From assembly GCA_003615045.1 (NCBI GenBank), contig ML014130.1, positions 1-64,000 on the forward strand: 64,000 nt of DNA, read 5' to 3'. The stretch comes from Caulochytrium protostelioides. Lineage: Eukaryota > Chytridiomycota > Caulochytriomycetes > Caulochytriales > Caulochytriaceae. Of the stretch, positions 38,300 to 51,862 are shown one piece after another (positions within the stretch are counted from its first letter, which is position 1; each line of letters starts with the position of its first letter). A program made the translations under genes and the position numbers. The notes under the pieces were generated by a model. That model did no database searches. It saw nothing but the letters and a program-made list of their open reading frames with translations, and was not told the origin of the DNA.

Positions 38300-38665
38300 C
38301 CCGCGAGACGAATCGGGTCCTGACAAAAGGGGCAATTCCGGGGCACAACGGTCGATCCGACGTCTCGCGCGTCCCAGGCGGGCGTCCACCCGACCGCGCC
38401 GACGCCGGTCGACCGAGTCCGCACGACGCGGGTGTATGCCAAGACGAATATGGTCCCGAAACCAGGGCAACGCCGGCGCAAGGGAACCGTGGTCCGAGGC
38501 TGGCTATGGTGTGATTCCACCAAGAGCAGGTAGGTGAACCGCATCCTCCACACTGCCTTGAACATCCGGCGGTGCCTGGCATCGTGGGTCAGACCGACAG
38601 CCGCCCTGTGCCGCACCCCCAGGCGAGACGAGCTGCAACACATAGCCGGCCAGCGTATCCACTGA
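38300..38665 (+). pseudogene. Fanzor/TnpB-like transposase remnant, copy A (3' fragment)
   Basis: In pieces of two frames this reads like the C-terminal end of a Fanzor/TnpB nuclease and aligns with the copy at 46.1-46.8 kb. Segment VRTTRVYAKTNMVPKPGQRR then VVRGWLWCDSTKSR is followed by a stop/frameshift near 38530, then VNRILHTALNIRRCLASW and RPTAALCR, ending at TGA 38663-38665. The family motif is V-N-R-D-x-N-A-A-x-N-I-R-R-C; the catalytic Asp of RuvC-III is replaced by Ile. One zinc-ribbon Cys (GWLWCD) survives. The 5' two-thirds are missing and at least two frame changes are present, so it is dead. It sits between TDP1 and the receptor-like gene. Confidence 0.7.
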
Positions 38666-38866
38666 TAAATCGAACGCGGACAGCCTCCATGGGGGACCTT
38701 TTGGGGGCGCCAAGGAGGGCGTACGTGCTGGAACCTCTCAAGGCTAATCCTAGGGAGCTCTCCGTATCCTAAAACAATATAAACTACACTTTGTGACATC
38801 TAAAAATGGTGGCCGGGAAATTGAGAAGGCAAAAGGAGCCTCCCAAAAAAGTGCGTATTGCCACGA

Positions 38867-42662: not shown

Positions 42663-44735
42663 TTAGGCCGTGAGGCGGTGTACGACGTGCTGGCAGAAGC
42701 CGAGCAGCGACGACCACAGCGACGGGGTGGAGGCCATGGGCGGCGCCGCGAGCGACCGGCGACGAACCGTGGCTGTCGTCGCCAGCGACATCATGGGCGT
42801 CGAGGCCGACGCGCTCGATAGGTAAGGGGCCTTCGCCGTGAGCGACGGCGCGACCACGTCGCCGCGCCGCGCCGCGTCCGCCCGCGACAAGGCCGGGGCA
42901 TGGAACAGCGGCAGCCCGCTCAACGTGTCGCCGTCGTGCACGGTGGCGAACGGCGCGGCCGCCGACGCCGCGCGCTCCGCCTCCGGATCAGACGCCGCCA
43001 TCCCACTGCTCATAGCCACGAGACTCGCCGCCGAGGCCATGATCACGCGGTCCGTCAGCCCGATCGCGGGGCGGCGCGCAGCCTCGGCATCGGCCTCCGC
43101 ACCGGCCTCCATCAGGTCCGTCGCGGCGGCCGCTCCGAGACAAGGTGCCGACGCCGACTCGGCCATCCCGCCGGCGGGCCCCGCCGACCGCCCCCACCGG
43201 CTCGCGACCGAGGAGCACAGGCCTTTCCAGAGGCTGCGGGAGTGCTTGGTGGTATGCGACGGCGGCAGCGGCAGGACCGACCCGTCGTGCAGCGGCGCGA
43301 GTAGGCGATCGTGCGGGACGCTCGCGTCGCGCGTCGCGTCGTCGGTGGGCGCGACGAGGCCGGCCTCGAGGTCGGCGAGCGCCGCGTCGCGCCGGCGGGA
43401 GGGCGACACGCGCGCGTGATGTCGCCACGCGGGCGAGGGGCGGCGGCGGCCGAAGAGGGCGCGGCGCGGCGACGACGCGGCGGGGCTCTCATCTGCCGAA
43501 GACGACGACGATGATGATGATGATGACGATGATGATGATGACGACGACGACGACGACAATGAGGAAATGAGCGACGGCATCGAGGGATGCGAGTCAAGCG
43601 GAGAGGTCATTGAATTTGCCGCATCCAGCGCTGGCGAATCGGGGGCCGCCACCGACGCCGCATCGCTGCCAACCGGTGAAGGATGCACGACGCGCACGCC
43701 GGCCGGGTGCTTCGTGACGACGAAGCGGGCCGGACGCAGGGGCGCGCCGGTGGCGGACGGCGCGGCGGCGCCCGCGACAGTATGGGACGGCTCGTGCTCC
43801 GCGGCGCACGGCACGGACGGGTGTTCCTCGACCGGTCGCACATGCACCACGCCGACCGGCAACGGCACGCCGGTATCACCACGGCCGCCGAGCGGCTTCG
43901 CTGCATCGATCGAGAGGACCGGCTCTTCGGTGATGACGGCGAGGCGCGTGGAACGCCACGGGAGCACGGCCGGCTGGCCTGGCGGCGGCGGCGAAGCGAG
44001 ACCCTCGGTCGCGGCCGCCGCGCCATACCCGGCGACCGCACCCGCGGTATCGATCGGCGGGAGCGCGGGCCGGCCACTGGGTGCTGCGGCCGCGACCAGC
44101 GCCGTCACCGACGCCAGCTCCGACTCAACGTCCGGCGATGGGAACGGGTGGCGCAGTGCGGTGGGACGGTACTCGGCACGGCCGTCGGGCCGGATCGGTC
44201 GGAGCATGCCGCGGCGGCGTCGGATGGCCTGGCGGGCGAGGACGGTCTGGTCCTGCACCTGGTAGGCGCGGACCAGATTGCGGAGGGCGTTGCGGCGCTC
44301 GTTCTGGTCGAGGCCGCGCCAGCGCACGTGGCTCGAGGCGCGCATCGGACAGCGCCGCCGGAGCCGCGCGGCGGCCGTGCGGTCGCCGATGCAGACGGTC
44401 GAGAGGATGCATGGCGTCGAGAAGGCCTGCAGGCGGCAGACTTGCTTCACGAGCGACGGCGCATCCGCGAGCAGTGACACCGGAAAGATGGACGGCGGCA
44501 GGTGGTGGTGTCGCTCCATGTCGGCGGCGGCGTCGGAGAAGAGACCGACCTGCCGCTTGCGGTGGTGCAGATTCACATGGAGTGCGGCGGACCCGAGGAT
44601 CGCGAGCAGCGTGCCTGGATCGAAGCGGCGGCACAACCACAGGTAGTGCTCGCGGCCTTCATTGAACGGCACGGGGGCCGTGGCCGCGGCCGCGCACGAC
44701 GACCGCGGCGCCAGCGTGCCCGTCTCGGCCTGCAT
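42663..44735 (-). CDS. Uncharacterised protein with poly-Ser tract, 690 aa
   Basis: An open frame from ATG 44735 (MQAETGTLAPRSSC). The first about 200 residues look partly folded: HYLWLCRRFDPGTLLAILGSAALHVNLHHRKRQVG..., LLADAPSLVKQVCRLQAFSTPCILSTVCIGD, then a basic helical stretch NERRNALRNLVRAYQVQDQ, ARQAIRRRRGMLRPIRPDGR. The middle and C-terminal parts are disordered, with a run of about 30 serines encoded by (GAY)n-type repeats at 43498-43560 (plus-strand view) and Ala/Pro/Arg-rich sequence, ending SLWSSLLGFCQHVVHRLTA, a possible amphipathic helix. No known domain recognised. A 5' exon is possible because the frame is open at the start only for four more codons. Confidence 0.65.
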   Translation of the reverse strand: MQAETGTLAPRSSCAAAATAPVPFNEGREHYLWLCRRFDPGTLLAILGSAALHVNLHHRKRQVGLFSDAAADMERHHHLPPSIFPVSLLADAPSLVKQVCRLQAFSTPCILSTVCIGDRTAAARLRRRCPMRASSHVRWRGLDQNERRNALRNLVRAYQVQDQTVLARQAIRRRRGMLRPIRPDGRAEYRPTALRHPFPSPDVESELASVTALVAAAAPSGRPALPPIDTAGAVAGYGAAAATEGLASPPPPGQPAVLPWRSTRLAVITEEPVLSIDAAKPLGGRGDTGVPLPVGVVHVRPVEEHPSVPCAAEHEPSHTVAGAAAPSATGAPLRPARFVVTKHPAGVRVVHPSPVGSDAASVAAPDSPALDAANSMTSPLDSHPSMPSLISSLSSSSSSSSSSSSSSSSSSSSADESPAASSPRRALFGRRRPSPAWRHHARVSPSRRRDAALADLEAGLVAPTDDATRDASVPHDRLLAPLHDGSVLPLPPSHTTKHSRSLWKGLCSSVASRWGRSAGPAGGMAESASAPCLGAAAATDLMEAGAEADAEAARRPAIGLTDRVIMASAASLVAMSSGMAASDPEAERAASAAAPFATVHDGDTLSGLPLFHAPALSRADAARRGDVVAPSLTAKAPYLSSASASTPMMSLATTATVRRRSLAAPPMASTPSLWSSLLGFCQHVVHRLTA

Positions 44736-46053
44736 CGCGCGTATCAAAGGCTTTCGCAGCAGCGTGGGCAGCCCAGGGTCCCGTTCTGGCGGCGATCAGC
44801 TCTTAGCAGCGTCGCTCTTAGCAACGTCGCGATCCGCAGGCAAGGCGGGGGCGCTGGCGAGCGGGGGCGGGGGCGGGCCGTGGCGCCCTGCGGCGGGCGG
44901 GCGGGCGGGCGGGCCCTAGAATACGCCTGGCGAAGTGGCGGCGATCACACGATGAGCCGAGATCAGGATGATGGCCATGAAGGATACGTGAGAGCGTCGT
45001 CTATGATGATGCATCCGCAGTTGTTCCATGTCTTCTGACTCTTCTGGCTCTTCCCGCATCGGCTAGCCGGTTTCCCATGATGCCGAGGCATGATGCGGCT
45101 TGATGCCCGTTCATGGGCTATATTCCCCAGCGAATGCTGCCCGCCCAGATATGAAGCCAGCGAGAAGGATCGGCGAGGTCAATGCCGACGGCGACCATCT
45201 CCGCTGACGCTGAGAGCATTGACATCGTGGTGAGCGACTTGGTGGGCCGCTCCTCCATGCCGATCTCTGCGCTGCGAGGGCCGTCGCCTCCCGCGGACGG
45301 GTTGCCAACGAGCGTTCGCTTGAAATTTTCCGTCGCGCCGCGGTTAACCCTCGTCGAGCCGATGCGCCGCCGATGCTCGAGCTCGCCCGAGCCATGTGCA
45401 GCGCGGGGCGGCGCGTGCGGCGCAGTCAACCGGCTGTCGATCCTCCCGCGTCGCCGCGCCTCATCCATCGTCGCCGCCCTTGATCTCGGCCGCCGTCGCC
45501 GCCGCCGCCGCCGCCGCCGTCGCCGCCGCCGCCGCCGCAGCCAACGCACATGGTCCGAGTGGGTGCAGGTCGCGCTTAGGCCGAGCCCGAAACGAGTCCT
45601 CCTTCGCCGCCGCCGCCGCTCCGGCCGCCGCTCGTCGTCGCCGCCGCCGCCGCGGCCGCTGCCGGCCCCCGCGGGCAAAGCAAGCCCAAACATGGCCGGC
45701 GGCGGGGGGTGGGGAGCGAGCCGCGGGGCCCGGAGGCACGATCTTGAGCATGATGGCGACGAGACTAATGAGGACGAGAAAGCGTGGCGACGGTCGATGT
45801 GTTGCCGACGACGACCGACGACCCACGGTCGGAGCCCGAGTCCCGGCTCGGGCGGACGATGGCTGAACCACGGCGGTGGCGCGCTCAATCTACGCGTTCG
45901 CCCGTCGTGGCGGGACATGAAATTGAAGTCGAGGGCGACACAAGGTCGCGATATTTGGTTTAACGCGGTCGTTCATATACTGGCCCAACGCGCACACCAT
46001 GCCCTCGGTGGTGTCCCCAGGGGTCTCCACTGAGGCAGACGCGCATTCGCGGT
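44736..46053. other. Intergenic region, no gene supported
   Basis: 1.3 kb. Contains (CCG)n-type runs near 45490-45540. A minus-strand frame ending at about 45118 reads a plausible-looking peptide tail (AEMVAVGIDLADPSRWLHIW) that might be a last exon, but no start or splice path could be supported. Confidence 0.4.
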
Positions 46054-46780
46054 TCAGTGTCGGATGGCTTTGCCGACCACGGGCCGCAGCCTGGTTTGAT
46101 TCGGGTTGCGGCACAGCGCTATCGGTCTATCCGGTAAGGCCAGGCAGCGTCGGATGTTCAACGCGGCATAAAGGTCGCGGTTCACAAACTTGCTGTGGGT
46201 GGCTTTATACCCCAGCAACCCTCGGACCTCGATCCCCGGGCGCCGGCGTTGCCCGGGTTTCAGGTTCACATTCGTTTGGGCATACGCCCGGGTCGTGCGG
46301 ACCGAGGTGACGGCCGTAGGCGCGGTCGAGCGGGCGCCCGCCCGGGACGTGCGAGCGGTCCGCACCTTCTTCGGGTACCGGGGGATTACCCTGGTCAGAA
46401 TCTCATCCGTCGCGGCATGCACCTGGGTCGTCCGGAACTCGTCGACCAGGATGGTGCGGAACCGCTGGGCGCACGTCTTGTACGCGCGGGCGGTTGGAAC
46501 CGAATGGGAATCTCGCCCTCCCGCCGAGGGCAGATTTGGAGGCCCCATAGGCAACCACCGCTTCAGCGACCACGGGTTCCATCTCCGTGGCCGTCACCTT
46601 GGCCACGCGGTTCATGAACTTCGTTGCGTGTACCCCACGTTTCGAAGGAAAGAAGCGGTCGACAAAAGCGGCGACCGCCACGCTGTTGCCTGAAGCCCCG
46701 CCGCCCCGAAGGTATCGGTCCCCACACGCCGCCACCCAACTTAAAAGAAGCGTAAGCTCCTTCGTGCGGCCCTCAAACAA
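46054..46780 (-). pseudogene. Fanzor/TnpB-like transposase remnant, copy B (C-terminal half)
   Basis: Two overlapping minus-strand frames together resemble the C-terminal half of a Fanzor (eukaryotic TnpB-like, OMEGA nuclease). The first (to about 46495) reads AAFVDRFFPSKRGVHATKF, MNRVAKVTATEME, EAVVAYGASKSALGGRARFP. After a frameshift near 46500 the second continues SVPTARAYKTCAQRFRTIL, VDEFRTTQ (family: DEFRTSK/Q), RGLLGYKATHSKF and VNRDLYAALNIRRC, then DRPIALCRNP. The RuvC-III Asp (NRD) is kept, but the zinc-ribbon cysteines expected after EFRTSxxC and in RGLLxC are lost (now VHAAT and GLLGYKATH). The 5' half is absent; beyond 46780 the SPT5 3' end begins at 46895. It is therefore an inactive relic of a mobile element. 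Confidence 0.78.
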
Positions 46781-46895
46781 TAGCTTGGTCTAAGCGACTC
46801 CTGAACAAGAGTTGGACCCATTACGACCGCACATAGGAGAAAGGAACGCGATGTAATCAATACGGCAACGCGGGGGTGGGAGTAAAGAGATTCTT

Positions 46896-49800
46896 TTACT
46901 CGGGACGGTACTTGGCCAGCTGAGTCGGCGGAATCACCTGGTAGCCGTCGGCGTCTTCGAAGCGGCAGACAGCGCCACCGACGCCGCCGAGGGTGACGAG
47001 GGCGCCAATCTTGTCGCGGAACTCGCCGCTCAGCACCTTAATAGTGTCACGGCGACTCACATCGACCGGATCGACCTGGTCCGAGCGCACAGTCAGCGCC
47101 TCATGCTCGAACTCGACGACCGCGGCGGCGCCGTGGTCGCGCGACACGCTGACCACGCCGATGCTGCCGGCCGCGACGCTGCCCATCGTCTCGCGCAGCC
47201 GCACCTCGACGCCCTTCAGCAGCCAGTCGTGCGGGCGCTCGGGCACCGCCGCGCGCGCCTCGGCCGGGTCGTCGCTGTCCAGCCCGCCGAGCCCCATGCC
47301 GCCGCCGCCGCCGCCGGAACCGACGCCGTGCGGCGTCGCCGGATTGTACGGCGTCTGGGGGTCGAACGGCGTCGCCGGGTTGGCGTGGTCGATGCCGCCG
47401 TGGCCGCCGCCGCCGCTCGCGGCGGGCGTCGCCGCCGCGAACGGCGTCGGCGGATTGAACGGCGTCGTCGCGTCGTACGCGCCCGTGGCGAACGGTGTAT
47501 GCGGCACGCCGGACGCATGCGGCGTCGCGGCGCTCGCGGGCGCGCCATAGGGGTCCTCCTCGCCCGCGGCGCTCGCTCCCCAGCCGGTCGGCTCGGCCCG
47601 CGGTGTCGCGCTGCCCCACGCGCTCTCGGCACGCGGCGTTGCTGAGCCCCAGCCGGCGCCCGGCGCCGCGGCGCCCCAGCCGGTCGGATCGGCCCGCGGC
47701 GTCGCGCTGCCCCACGCACTGCCGCCATCGGCGCCGCCCGAGGCGGAAGCGGCCGGGTTCCAGGCCGGCGTCTTGCTGCCGGCGCCGCCGTGCGCCGGCG
47801 TCGCGCTGCCGACGCCCCAAGCCGGCGTCTTACTGCCGGCGTTCCAGGCCGGCGTGCGGCCACCGTCGGCGCCGGCGCTCGTGTACGGGTTGGGCGTCGC
47901 TGCGCTGCGGAGAGGCGTCTTGCTGCCCCAGCCGCTGGGGGTGCCGACGGCGCCGGCGCTCGTGCCCCAGCCGCCGGTAGTGCCGGCGCCGGAGCCCCAG
48001 CCGCTGCTGCTGCTGCTGCCGCCGGCGCCGCTGCCCCAGCCGCTACCGCTGCCGCTGCCCCAGCCGCTGGCGGCGCCACCATGGCCGCTGGCGCCGCTGT
48101 AGCCGCCGCTGTAGCCGCCGCCACGCGACCCGCCGCCCTGGCCGTCCTGGAGCTGCAGCTTGCCGCGGGGCATGGTGATGATGCGGTTGCCCGTGTGGAG
48201 CTCGACGCGCGCGTCGTCGCCCATCATGTTGCGCACGATGCCGAGGTAGCCCTTCCAAGGCCCGCCAATGATGCGGACGGTCTTGTAGAGCATGGGGTCG
48301 TGGCGGCCGCGCCCGCCGCCACCGCCGCCGCCGCGGCCCATGCCGCCGCCGCCGCGGCCCATGCCACCGAGGGGTGGGTTGCCGCCAATGCGGCCGGCGT
48401 CCTTGTCCCAGCGGTTCGCGCCGGCGCCGCTCCAGGGGTTGTTGATGGCGCCGTAGGCCGAGGCGGGCATGCCCATGGGCGGGCCCATCGTCTTGGCCGC
48501 GGTCGCTGCGACGACCTGGTGGTTCTGCACGACGAAGATGCCGTTGTTCTCGGCGATCTCACGGTTGAGCGCAAAAATGGCGGTGCGGTAGATGTGCAGG
48601 ATGGAGGCCTGGCGGCCGGCACCGCCGGGGTCGCGGTAGACCGTGATCTGGTCGCCGACGGTGATGGGGCGGCCGGCACGGTCGGTGCCGATGGGCGGGT
48701 TATTGGCCGGCACGGGCCGGACCGCCTGGATGCGGCGCGACATCACGCGGCCGTAGTGGTTCATGACGCGCAGCGCGTCGCGCTCGATCGCGATGACGAC
48801 GCCGACCTCGTCCGGGCCGAGAATGACGGCGTCGCGGACCGCGAACTGGGTCGTGCCGACACCGGCGGCGCCGCGGCGCTCAGGCAGCGGCGCGTCGAGC
48901 TTGACGCCCTTCGAGAGGTTGCTCACCGACTCGTCCGCCGGCCGCAGGTCTTTCCAGAACGCCTCGATGGACTCCATCGTCGTGTCGCTCACGATCGTGA
49001 CGACGTTGTCGGCCGTGCCGACGACCATGCCCGTCTGGTCCTTGTGGATGCCGTTGACGATGCGCACGTGGGTGCCTGCTTCGTAGACTTTGCGGACCTC
49101 GACGGCCGACACGGTGACGCTCGTGGCGAGCCCCACCGAGGCATCCGGCTTGATGACGAGCATGTCGCCCGGCTGGATGCTTTCGACCGTGCCCATCATG
49201 TTCAGCAGCTCGCCCAGGGTGATCTGGATACGCTCGCCCACCTGGAAGTGCTCGGCCGTGATCGCCGTCTGGCTCGAGAGCCCCAGGTTCTTGGCCGCCG
49301 CGGGGTCGAGCGACCCGCCGTTAAACGCGGTGATCTCCTCCAGCGTCGGGTTGACGTTCTCGATGGCCAACGACGCGAGGCGCGGCTCCTTGATGAGATA
49401 GCCCTGCTTGTCGTACATGTCGCCGTTGTAGATGTAGCCGCCGTGGGTGCGCTGGAGCTGCGAGCGCTGCGTCACCAGATTGACCGAGAAGAGGCGCGCG
49501 GGCGGGATCGCCGCGGCCGCCGCGGCGGCCTTCTTGCGCTTCTTCTCGGCGTCCGTGGCGCCGTCGTCGATACCGTCGTCGTTGGCCGGCGCGGCGCGGC
49601 GACCGAAACGCCCGGGGCCGGTTTCGCGACTCTGGTTGTAGTCGATGCGGGGCACAACGCGCACGCGGACACTGTCGCCGCCGTCCATGACATCCTGGAT
49701 CTGCACCAGGTCGCCACCATACTTGCCGCGTTTCAAGCGCGCCCACATGCCCGGCTTGACGGTGGTCTTGTGGGACTTGATGGTCAGGCAGCTGGTCATT

Positions 49801-50672
49801 TCCTCGACGGGCACGAGGTGGTATTTGTTCTTGTAGATCTTGACCATGTTGTCCACGGCGGCCTCAACGTGGGCGAAGCGCTCGGCCTCGATGTAGATGT
49901 AGCCCTCGAGGCCCTCGCGGAAGAAGGCCGACGTGATGTCGATGCGCGTCGGCTCGAATTCTTTGTCCAAGTACTTGCGCATCAGACGGAAGATGATGTC
50001 GCGCTCCTGGCCGGCCTTGCAGCGAACCATCCAGATCTTGGGGTCATTCACGGACGGCGTCAGGACCGACTGCGGCACGTAGTTGATCTCGCCCTTGAAC
50101 GACGTCGTGTCGGCGCGGCCATACCGCGACTTCATGAGCGCCGCGATCTCCTCGGCGTCCATATCGTTCTTCTGCCGCTCGAGGCGCTCGCGCTCCTGGT
50201 GGCGGCGCTGCTCGCGGCGGCGCTCAGCACTGCTCTGAACCTCGTCGAAGCCCTCTTCGACCTCGAAGCCCTCGGCGTCCTCGTCCTCCTCGTCCTCCTC
50301 GTCCGAGCCGTCGTCGTCCGCTTCGGTGTCAAGGTATGGATTGGCCGGCCGCTTGCGACGCTTCTTGACGGGCTTGCGGTCTTCTTCTTCTTCGTCGTCT
50401 TCCTCCTCATCTTCGTCGTCCTCGTCATCGAGGTCATCGAGCTCGCCGCCGCGGCGGATCCGGCGGCTGCGAGACGCGGGATCATCGTCGTCTTCCTCGT
50501 CGTCTTCGGAGGCCGCGTCATCGATAAAGGGGTTGCGCTTGCGCCGGCGTTCGCGGCGCGTTGCGCCGTCGTCGTCGTCAGAGTTGGCCAGCAGGCCGTC
50601 GGCGTCGTCATCGCCCTCGGCATCGGCCTGCCGGCGGCGCGCGGCGCGCGCCTCGGCTTCCGAGTCGCTCAT
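46896..50672 (-). CDS. SPT5: Transcription elongation factor Spt5 (DSIF subunit)
   Basis: 1258 aa from ATG 50672. Order of parts: an acidic, basic-patched N-terminus (1-195) with long Asp/Glu runs; NGN domain (about 205-300) KIWMVRCKAGQERDIIFRLM ... GYIYIEAERFAHVEAAV; several KOW modules, including GMWARLKRGKYGGDLVQIQD, GTHVRIVNGIHKDQTGMVVG and GPWKGYLGIVRN; a Gly-rich linker; a C-terminal repeat region with GSKTPAWN-type units; and a final KOW, DKIGALVTLGG...YQVIPPTQLAKYRPE. Spt5 binds Spt4 and clamps RNA polymerase II, and its repeats are phosphorylated by Cdk9. The CTR units TPAWNAGSKTPAWGVGS closely match the S. pombe nonapeptide TPAWNSGSK. The antisense strand stays open for over 1000 codons, a GC-bias artefact. 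Confidence 0.97.
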   Translation of the reverse strand: MSDSEAEARAARRRQADAEGDDDADGLLANSDDDDGATRRERRRKRNPFIDDAASEDDEEDDDDPASRSRRIRRGGELDDLDDEDDEDEEEDDEEEEDRKPVKKRRKRPANPYLDTEADDDGSDEEDEEDEDAEGFEVEEGFDEVQSSAERRREQRRHQERERLERQKNDMDAEEIAALMKSRYGRADTTSFKGEINYVPQSVLTPSVNDPKIWMVRCKAGQERDIIFRLMRKYLDKEFEPTRIDITSAFFREGLEGYIYIEAERFAHVEAAVDNMVKIYKNKYHLVPVEEMTSCLTIKSHKTTVKPGMWARLKRGKYGGDLVQIQDVMDGGDSVRVRVVPRIDYNQSRETGPGRFGRRAAPANDDGIDDGATDAEKKRKKAAAAAAAIPPARLFSVNLVTQRSQLQRTHGGYIYNGDMYDKQGYLIKEPRLASLAIENVNPTLEEITAFNGGSLDPAAAKNLGLSSQTAITAEHFQVGERIQITLGELLNMMGTVESIQPGDMLVIKPDASVGLATSVTVSAVEVRKVYEAGTHVRIVNGIHKDQTGMVVGTADNVVTIVSDTTMESIEAFWKDLRPADESVSNLSKGVKLDAPLPERRGAAGVGTTQFAVRDAVILGPDEVGVVIAIERDALRVMNHYGRVMSRRIQAVRPVPANNPPIGTDRAGRPITVGDQITVYRDPGGAGRQASILHIYRTAIFALNREIAENNGIFVVQNHQVVAATAAKTMGPPMGMPASAYGAINNPWSGAGANRWDKDAGRIGGNPPLGGMGRGGGGMGRGGGGGGGRGRHDPMLYKTVRIIGGPWKGYLGIVRNMMGDDARVELHTGNRIITMPRGKLQLQDGQGGGSRGGGYSGGYSGASGHGGAASGWGSGSGSGWGSGAGGSSSSSGWGSGAGTTGGWGTSAGAVGTPSGWGSKTPLRSAATPNPYTSAGADGGRTPAWNAGSKTPAWGVGSATPAHGGAGSKTPAWNPAASASGGADGGSAWGSATPRADPTGWGAAAPGAGWGSATPRAESAWGSATPRAEPTGWGASAAGEEDPYGAPASAATPHASGVPHTPFATGAYDATTPFNPPTPFAAATPAASGGGGHGGIDHANPATPFDPQTPYNPATPHGVGSGGGGGGMGLGGLDSDDPAEARAAVPERPHDWLLKGVEVRLRETMGSVAAGSIGVVSVSRDHGAAAVVEFEHEALTVRSDQVDPVDVSRRDTIKVLSGEFRDKIGALVTLGGVGGAVCRFEDADGYQVIPPTQLAKYRPE

Positions 50673-51862
50673 CGTGCGTCGCGGCGAAGCGGGAGAAGCG
50701 AGAGCAGCGAGGGGTATGCCGCCACAAAGGACGATGCGCGCAGAGGCGGCCGGACGCGGTCACAGCACCGGTCTCACGCACTTGCCGGGGGAGGCCGAAA
50801 CGATCCAGCGGCACGAGCAACACGGTGCGGGGATCGCCAGCAAAGCGGACCACGTGGCGTAGCTCAGGTCAGCCGTCGCCCAGCACGTGGTCGTTCGGGT
50901 TTCAGGGAACTGGCGTCTCGCTGGCGTTCGGAGCCGTGCGGCGGTGCGCGACCACGTCGGGGAGAGGGGTTGCAGGCTGTAAAAATACACGGTGGGTCAC
51001 CGTCAGCAGGGAGACGGAGCAGGGATCGGCCAGACGTCGCGTGAGGTCACCGGCACCGACAAAGAGCAGGGGCGGAAAGGACCAGTCGTGATAGTCGAGC
51101 CGAGAGAGGTCGCCAGCGCGCACAGGGGTCGACGGAGTTCAGCCAACCGGCGCGTCGTCGGCCGCGAGGGATCACGCGCTCGGAAGGTACCTCGCGCGAG
51201 CGGCCACGTGCATGTCCGACCACGTCAATGCGAACGTCACGCCAGCATCCTCCATACATCCCTCAACGGCGACGCCACTTTTTTCTTCATTGCTGGACGC
51301 GGCCGCCGTCTCGCGTTGCTAGGCATGGAAGTGTGCGACGTTGCGGTTCCGTGCGAGCGGGCGGGTGGCGCACTCGCCGGGACCACGTTTCCTCGGCGGA
51401 AAAAAAAAACTATGGCGGCTTTTCCTTTTGCGGGGGGTCGACGACGACACATAGGCTGTGGCCCCGACGCCCTGAGGCGGCCCGCGGGTCCGACCGGCAT
51501 GAGCCGTCGTCGTCGGGCGGCGACAAAGCCGGCTGCGCCGCGCGCCTCTGACGGCATCCCGCGATGTCTCGGCGCGACGATCCATCCCCCGCCCGTTTCG
51601 GCTCTCAGCATGCGCAGGACGGCCTCGTCAGCGTAGCGCTGATGGTCGATCCCCACCGGGGTTCCTGACAGAACAGCCACCCGCCTGCCAGGACTCAGAA
51701 ACCAGTTTTGCAACAGAAACATAAGGGATCATAAGATGGTATAAAAAGAAAGGGGAGGGGAGGCATGTCGCCAGGGCAGGCGACGCCTGCAGACGGCATT
51801 GCCCAGATCAGGGGATGAGGACCGCGCGGCGTTGGCCAAGCGGCGGATGATGATGAGCGTCT
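50673..51862. promoter_or_regulatory. Upstream region of SPT5 and 3' flank of PDH E2
   Basis: 1.2 kb between two minus-strand genes. An A-run lies at 51401-51410; the sequence CGTGGCGTAG at 50854-50863 is a one-base variant of the recurrent 9-mer. No gene seen. Confidence 0.4.

Follow-up and report, generated by a model that had tools for sequence, protein, structure and literature searches.

Fanzor proteins are marked by a DPG motif and by a relocated glutamate (Ealt) six residues ahead of the zinc finger (Yoon et al., PMC10711439). According to Bao and Jurka, a glycine and a glutamate 36 residues apart are extremely conserved in Fanzor1, and a four-cysteine (C4) zinc finger is part of the strictly conserved Fanzor motif (PMC3627910); in PMC10711439 the finger is described as present only in "many" members. 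Amongst the closest described systems, SpuFz1 of Spizellomyces punctatus (PDB 8gkh, 9ceu-9cez) keeps a CCCC zinc finger (PMC10432273); the inverted repeats of the Spu-1 element are about 30-33 bases long, and its full-length genes number 19. In PpFz1 of Parasitella parasitica (PDB 9cf0) the printed alignment shows the zinc cysteines, and the chain is longer. The Fanzor1 families CRe-1, 2 and 3 of Chlamydomonas reinhardtii, with 255 loci between them, consist of 5'-truncated and internally deleted copies with intact 3' ends, a pattern read as one-ended transposition (PMC3627910). The element analysed here lies behind the SPT5 gene of the chytrid Caulochytrium protostelioides, in a window of 64,000 nucleotides (contig ML014130.1, assembly GCA_003615045.1), where the initial annotation had placed a decayed Fanzor/TnpB-like nuclease at 46054..46780. 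The Caulochytrium family is truncated and deleted in the same manner as CRe-1, 2 and 3 but is unlike them in that many of their copies have flanking duplications and are linked to Helitrons, and that they belong to a strictly C4 set (PMC3627910). It departs from PpFz1 in both respects named above and from the Spizellomyces system in that the CCCC finger is absent and neither such inverted repeats nor full-length genes were found. We read the window element, with a probability of about 0.85, as a dead copy, with an internal deletion, of a mobile element present in many copies; the founder of this element would have encoded an RNA-guided nuclease of Fanzor1 type from a branch without the C4 ribbon. 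Being a dead repeat, the copy draws its interest from that branch of predicted Fanzor1-type nucleases, which bear the catalytic triad and lack the zinc ligands.

The minus-strand frame 46054-46593 encodes DEFRTTQ, KFVNRDLYAALNIRRC and DRPIALCR, the peptides named in the initial annotation. Searching the window by tblastn with the environmental relative P0037 matched 46521-46060 (E 1.3e-27, 43% identity), while a second relative, P0001, matched another frame at 46657-46490 (E 8e-4; for P0037 only 0.07 there). The frames of the two matches meet, and the frame change therefore falls between 46521 and 46490, in agreement with the frameshift proposed near 46500; amongst the matches listed, most begin near residue 24 of frame 46054-46593 or later. 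The element is real but longer than first delimited: its 5' end is near 46852, and its 3' end falls within about 45985-45951. It begins 43 bases past the stop codon of SPT5 and is oriented like that gene. An internal deletion at 46621/46622 has removed REC and RuvC-I from the window copy, the flanks of the junction being about 2.37 kb apart in the copy on contig C299. As the same junction is shared by the copies on C124 and C194, we conclude that transposition or duplication of an internally deleted form produced no fewer than three copies. A splice junction of a processed transcript was considered for this position and dropped: it is not GT-AG, it recurs at three loci, and the copies on C299, C177, C31 and C43 run continuously through the 5' side, so that we read it as one deletion.

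Kinship with Fanzor/TnpB proteins, as first proposed, is borne out by the relatives. Copies on other contigs extended the family frame through YSGKQRVFA and NDPGRTN, and one frame of 320 residues used as query returned 16 proteins at E<=0.01, of which one is an annotated hybrid of the host and the other 15 come from the sources jgi, ena and lgn. A profile search then reached 286 proteins at E<=1e-3, one of them from Chlamydomonas eustigma; many of the 120 listed are 560-720 residues long, and the branch thus supplies compact candidates. In an alignment of 81 full-length relatives, hand-picked from 126 proteins and so a selection of the full-length ones, D371, G501, E535 and R578-D579 are invariant (81/81), and P372 and G373 of the DPG motif occur in at least 90%. 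The RuvC-I aspartate of Fanzor1 thus stands in its DPG motif in the relatives, and the C226 copy reads NDPGRTN, whereas the region is deleted from the window copy; the relocated glutamate (E535) and the RuvC-III RD are kept there. We take G501 and E535, 34 residues apart, to be the glycine and glutamate of Bao and Jurka. The profile of the relatives matches all three solved Fanzor1 proteins, and the relative P0037, to which this result applies rather than to the broken window copy, shows a Fanzor1 fold over its whole length; a predicted fold match also links the family to A0A2P0VP66 of the giant virus Tetraselmis virus 1 (E 2.0e-30, template modelling score 0.78, 23% identity). Comparing the window frames directly with Pfam, the check put forward at the outset, gave no match: kinship appears with the profiles of relatives and with one relative, P0120, whose single sequence clears the Pfam TNB cut-off (27.1 versus 26.3 bits). 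Scans of single sequences against Pfam (the window frames and those of C43 and L009) and a PDB search with one sequence yielded nothing useful, and PF07282 had no match in the whole genome (4 candidates scored). Absence of the ribbon from the branch accounts for such misses by single-sequence domain searches. None of 115 pattern stretches on viral contigs encodes a relative.

The initial annotation had taken the missing zinc-ribbon cysteines as a sign of decay. This would make the founder a standard Fanzor1 element with zinc, and the lack of cysteines in its copies a later loss; the state of the copies fits: the window copy is broken, many others contain stops or are fragments, and cysteines erode under decay. 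The relatives, however, show the same absence. A CxxC between the glutamate and RD occurs in 0/81 full-length relatives, a single cysteine (position 567) is retained in 50/81, and the position of the first zinc cysteine is filled by His (35), Asp (17), Cys (6) and others. The C4 pattern is likewise found in 0 of 107 parseable proteins (125 in all, 18 not parseable, the hybrid P0002 excluded beforehand), while the three solved Fanzor1 proteins have four cysteines at this place in printed alignments, the GtFz1 stretch aligning weakly. The absence is therefore a trait of the branch; loss by decay is refuted as regards the listed relatives and retains hardly any credibility as a general explanation. 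Since all relatives were reached from a zinc-less seed, with 120 of the 286 profile matches examined, the counts carry no inference on the frequency of the trait amongst all Fanzors. As the C4 zinc finger of Fanzor1, a defining feature of the 2013 motif, is not found, we place the family next to standard Fanzor1, as a variant without zinc.

The existence of full-length proteins that lack the ribbon and have an intact triad suggests that whatever maintains the genes of the branch can do without it. We see about even chances that a large Fanzor1 branch acts as RNA-guided nucleases without a zinc ribbon, with a TNB domain rebuilt metal-free around a fixed triad. In our main reading, the founder protein would have bound an RNA derived from the element's 3' terminus and cleaved DNA that matched it, with a TNB domain held together free of zinc. 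We found no paper on a zinc-less Fanzor branch in the open-licence literature. The motif-search expressions in PMC10711439 demand CxxC, and if the prediction is true, searches of this kind overlook the branch, and some of the RNA-guided nucleases of eukaryotes are as yet unrecognised; the mining of Saito et al. proceeded by structure and profile, not by CxxC (PMC10432273), and branch members may be present in their tables.

Relatives elsewhere in the genome had been anticipated, and copies are indeed many. A DNA search with the window element gave 44 matches (best 40 of 635 candidates scored, window copy included) and a protein search with the window frame 182 (best 150 of 1004 candidates scored); the main DNA matches at other loci are 75-90% identical across hundreds of bases. 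A 29-base pattern for KFVNRDLNAA, allowing up to 3 mismatches, fits 367 sites in the 20.9-Mb genome and its reversed control none. Together with the DNA identities this excludes low-complexity Arg/Ala composition as the sole basis of the homology. The intact relatives that had been suggested were not found: listed matches to a full-length relative (best 71 of 1241 candidates scored) are all partial or contain stops, though an intact gene may still exist, interrupted by introns, among lower-ranked candidates or in assembly gaps. Motif counts drop from 3' to 5', from 367 (residue 579) through 116 (about 470) and 65 (371, the RuvC-I DNA pattern at up to 3 mismatches) to 31 (275), a gradient that is approximate because the four patterns differ in degeneracy and conservation; it reaches its lowest point in the element 5' region, at only 8 loci. 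Accordingly, copy 5' ends scatter widely, while most 3' ends coincide within tens of bases. There is no sign of selection at the protein level, since codon-position bias is not significant (p 0.07 for substitutions confined to one copy, p 0.32 for those in six or more copies), as expected for neutral decay. Several hundred copies in a genome of this size provide a good record of how a Fanzor multiplies and dies.

Besides the approximate nature of the gradient, several results weigh against the proposed reading. Single members mostly miss TnpB models: at E<=0.01, NCBIfam guided_TnpB is reached by 10/68 and Pfam TNB by 13/68. Of 57 copy entries, 36 satisfied the length rules, and target-site duplications left no signal in these (mean longest match 5.92, versus 5.99 in mismatched pairs; the longest flanking match is one of 9 bases, at L014). 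The omega RNAs suggested by the initial annotation also fared poorly. RNAalifold found 2 pairs in the 3' tails and not the nine-pair hairpin described below, folds of single strands in 8 copies were mostly unremarkable (z -2.40 to +0.83), and a terminal hairpin preceding the A-rich stretch, convincing by eye, reached p<0.05 in only 4/32 copies and was rejected. No Rfam match exceeded its gathering score. What stands of this suggestion is one modestly covarying hairpin. The 70 bases past the stop codon are conserved amongst copies and followed by an A-rich stretch; for 32 of 49 distinct copies (excluded were 10 lacking the end defined by our rule and 7 more whose ends came late or were odd), a nine-pair hairpin in this tail has 81.5% of its cells paired, against at most 55.3% when slid. 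Double-sided changes occur in 14 cells, a count equalled or exceeded in 3/500 shuffles, but they fall in 2 pairs only, which is no more than in shuffles, and the number of pair types is likewise no higher. We regard the hairpin as a lead towards an omega RNA scaffold, not a demonstration of one.

How the copies spread is less certain than what they are. In our picture the copies spread passively, their synthesis starting at the 3' end through either a reverse transcriptase or a one-ended rolling-circle process, and one of them landed behind SPT5. Movement by the reverse transcriptase of a long interspersed nuclear element (LINE) would produce 5'-truncated copies with A-rich tails. The 3'-to-5' gradient and the A-rich 3' ends fit, and the genome holds 19 matches to reverse-transcriptase domains, 15 of them above the cut-off; with A-runs that are short, no target-site duplication signal, and no search made for a LINE sharing the 3' tail, we rate this route as somewhat short of an even bet. 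One-ended, Helitron-type rolling-circle transposition, as proposed for CRe-1, 2 and 3, would explain a truncation and deletion pattern identical to theirs (PMC3627910). It is a tentative possibility that we doubt on balance: about 70, 57 and 10% of the CRe-1, 2 and 3 loci have target-site duplications (PMC3627910) whereas no signal is seen here. The Helitron_like_N model has no match in the genome, but it was equally silent in control genomes and so is uninformative. Cut-and-paste transposition with inverted repeats, as in Spu-1, could yield the deletion common to three loci as a ghost-type derivative. We consider it improbable, as 5' ends vary and no inverted repeat joins both ends of the C43 or the window copy; C43 has one 14-base pair inside both ends, a length at which chance matches occur. 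Of the other Spu-1 mark, a TA duplication, the 36 copies, old and truncated as they are, give no signal.

The amplified family also carries about 45 additional codons between the glutamate and RD, an in-frame tandem duplication of the DEFRT segment that corresponds to a 135-nucleotide spaced repeat in the C43 copy. Across 48 copy entries the two units have a mean identity of 0.659, versus at most 0.389 at other offsets. The C226 copy, which contains one stop and is missing part of its N-terminal half, lacks the duplication and retains NDPG, VDEF and SRD; the duplication thus probably arose inside the Caulochytrium lineage and then spread.

Table 1. Coordinates of the element and associated features within the 64,000-nucleotide window
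Feature	Position	Strand	Basis
Whole element copy	45951..46852	-	DNA homology to other copies
Remnant of Fanzor RuvC-II / TNB / RuvC-III coding region	46057..46524	-	Inside open frame 46054-46593
Frameshift interval	46490..46521	-	Two tblastn frames meeting
Relocated catalytic Glu codon (DEFRT)	46438..46440	-	Position in translation; column invariant in 81/81 relatives
RuvC-III Asp codon (NRD)	46174..46176	-	Motif match 46163-46191; 81/81 relatives
Junction of internal deletion of ~2.4 kb	46621..46622	-	Common to copies on C124 and C194
Element 5' region	46622..46852	-	8 loci only, window included
45-codon in-frame tandem duplication of DEFRT segment	46255..46440	-	Unit 2 from near 46305
Conserved 3' tail past stop codon, A-rich end	45984..46053	-	Copy comparison
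3'-tail hairpin, candidate omega RNA scaffold	46003..46035	-	Modest covariation
Second, more decayed family copy	38304..38731	+	DNA identity of 71-73% with other copies; tblastn match at E 2.4e-18
SPT5 gene frame	46896..50759	-	Pfam Spt5-NGN and KOW domains

Some further observations concern the surroundings of the copies. Amongst ten contig starts viewed, those of C155, C202, C230 and C245 lie within or at the edge of a copy; the repeat therefore probably breaks the assembly. A telomeric link of such copies was dismissed, as four consecutive exact TTAGGG units, the only telomere repeat tried, occur nowhere. A tRNA-Pro gene (L043:3377-3448, minus strand) neighbours the C194 copy, at no more than about 100 bases from its 3' end; as a general trait a tRNA neighbourhood was discarded, with a tRNA gene at only 2/44 loci scanned. 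The hybrid host protein of 554 residues, CXG81DRAFT_23488 (P0002; L045, G000:C6:205000-209000), consists of a piece of the element followed by unlike sequence and is either a gene-model artefact or an exonised copy. Within the window, GCC/CCG-rich runs occupy 45489-45680, beyond the 3' end of the copy, and an open frame of 710 residues at 42663-44795 (minus strand), which contains a long run of serines and matches DUF4667 only weakly (E 0.0018, short of the cut-off), is possibly a gene.
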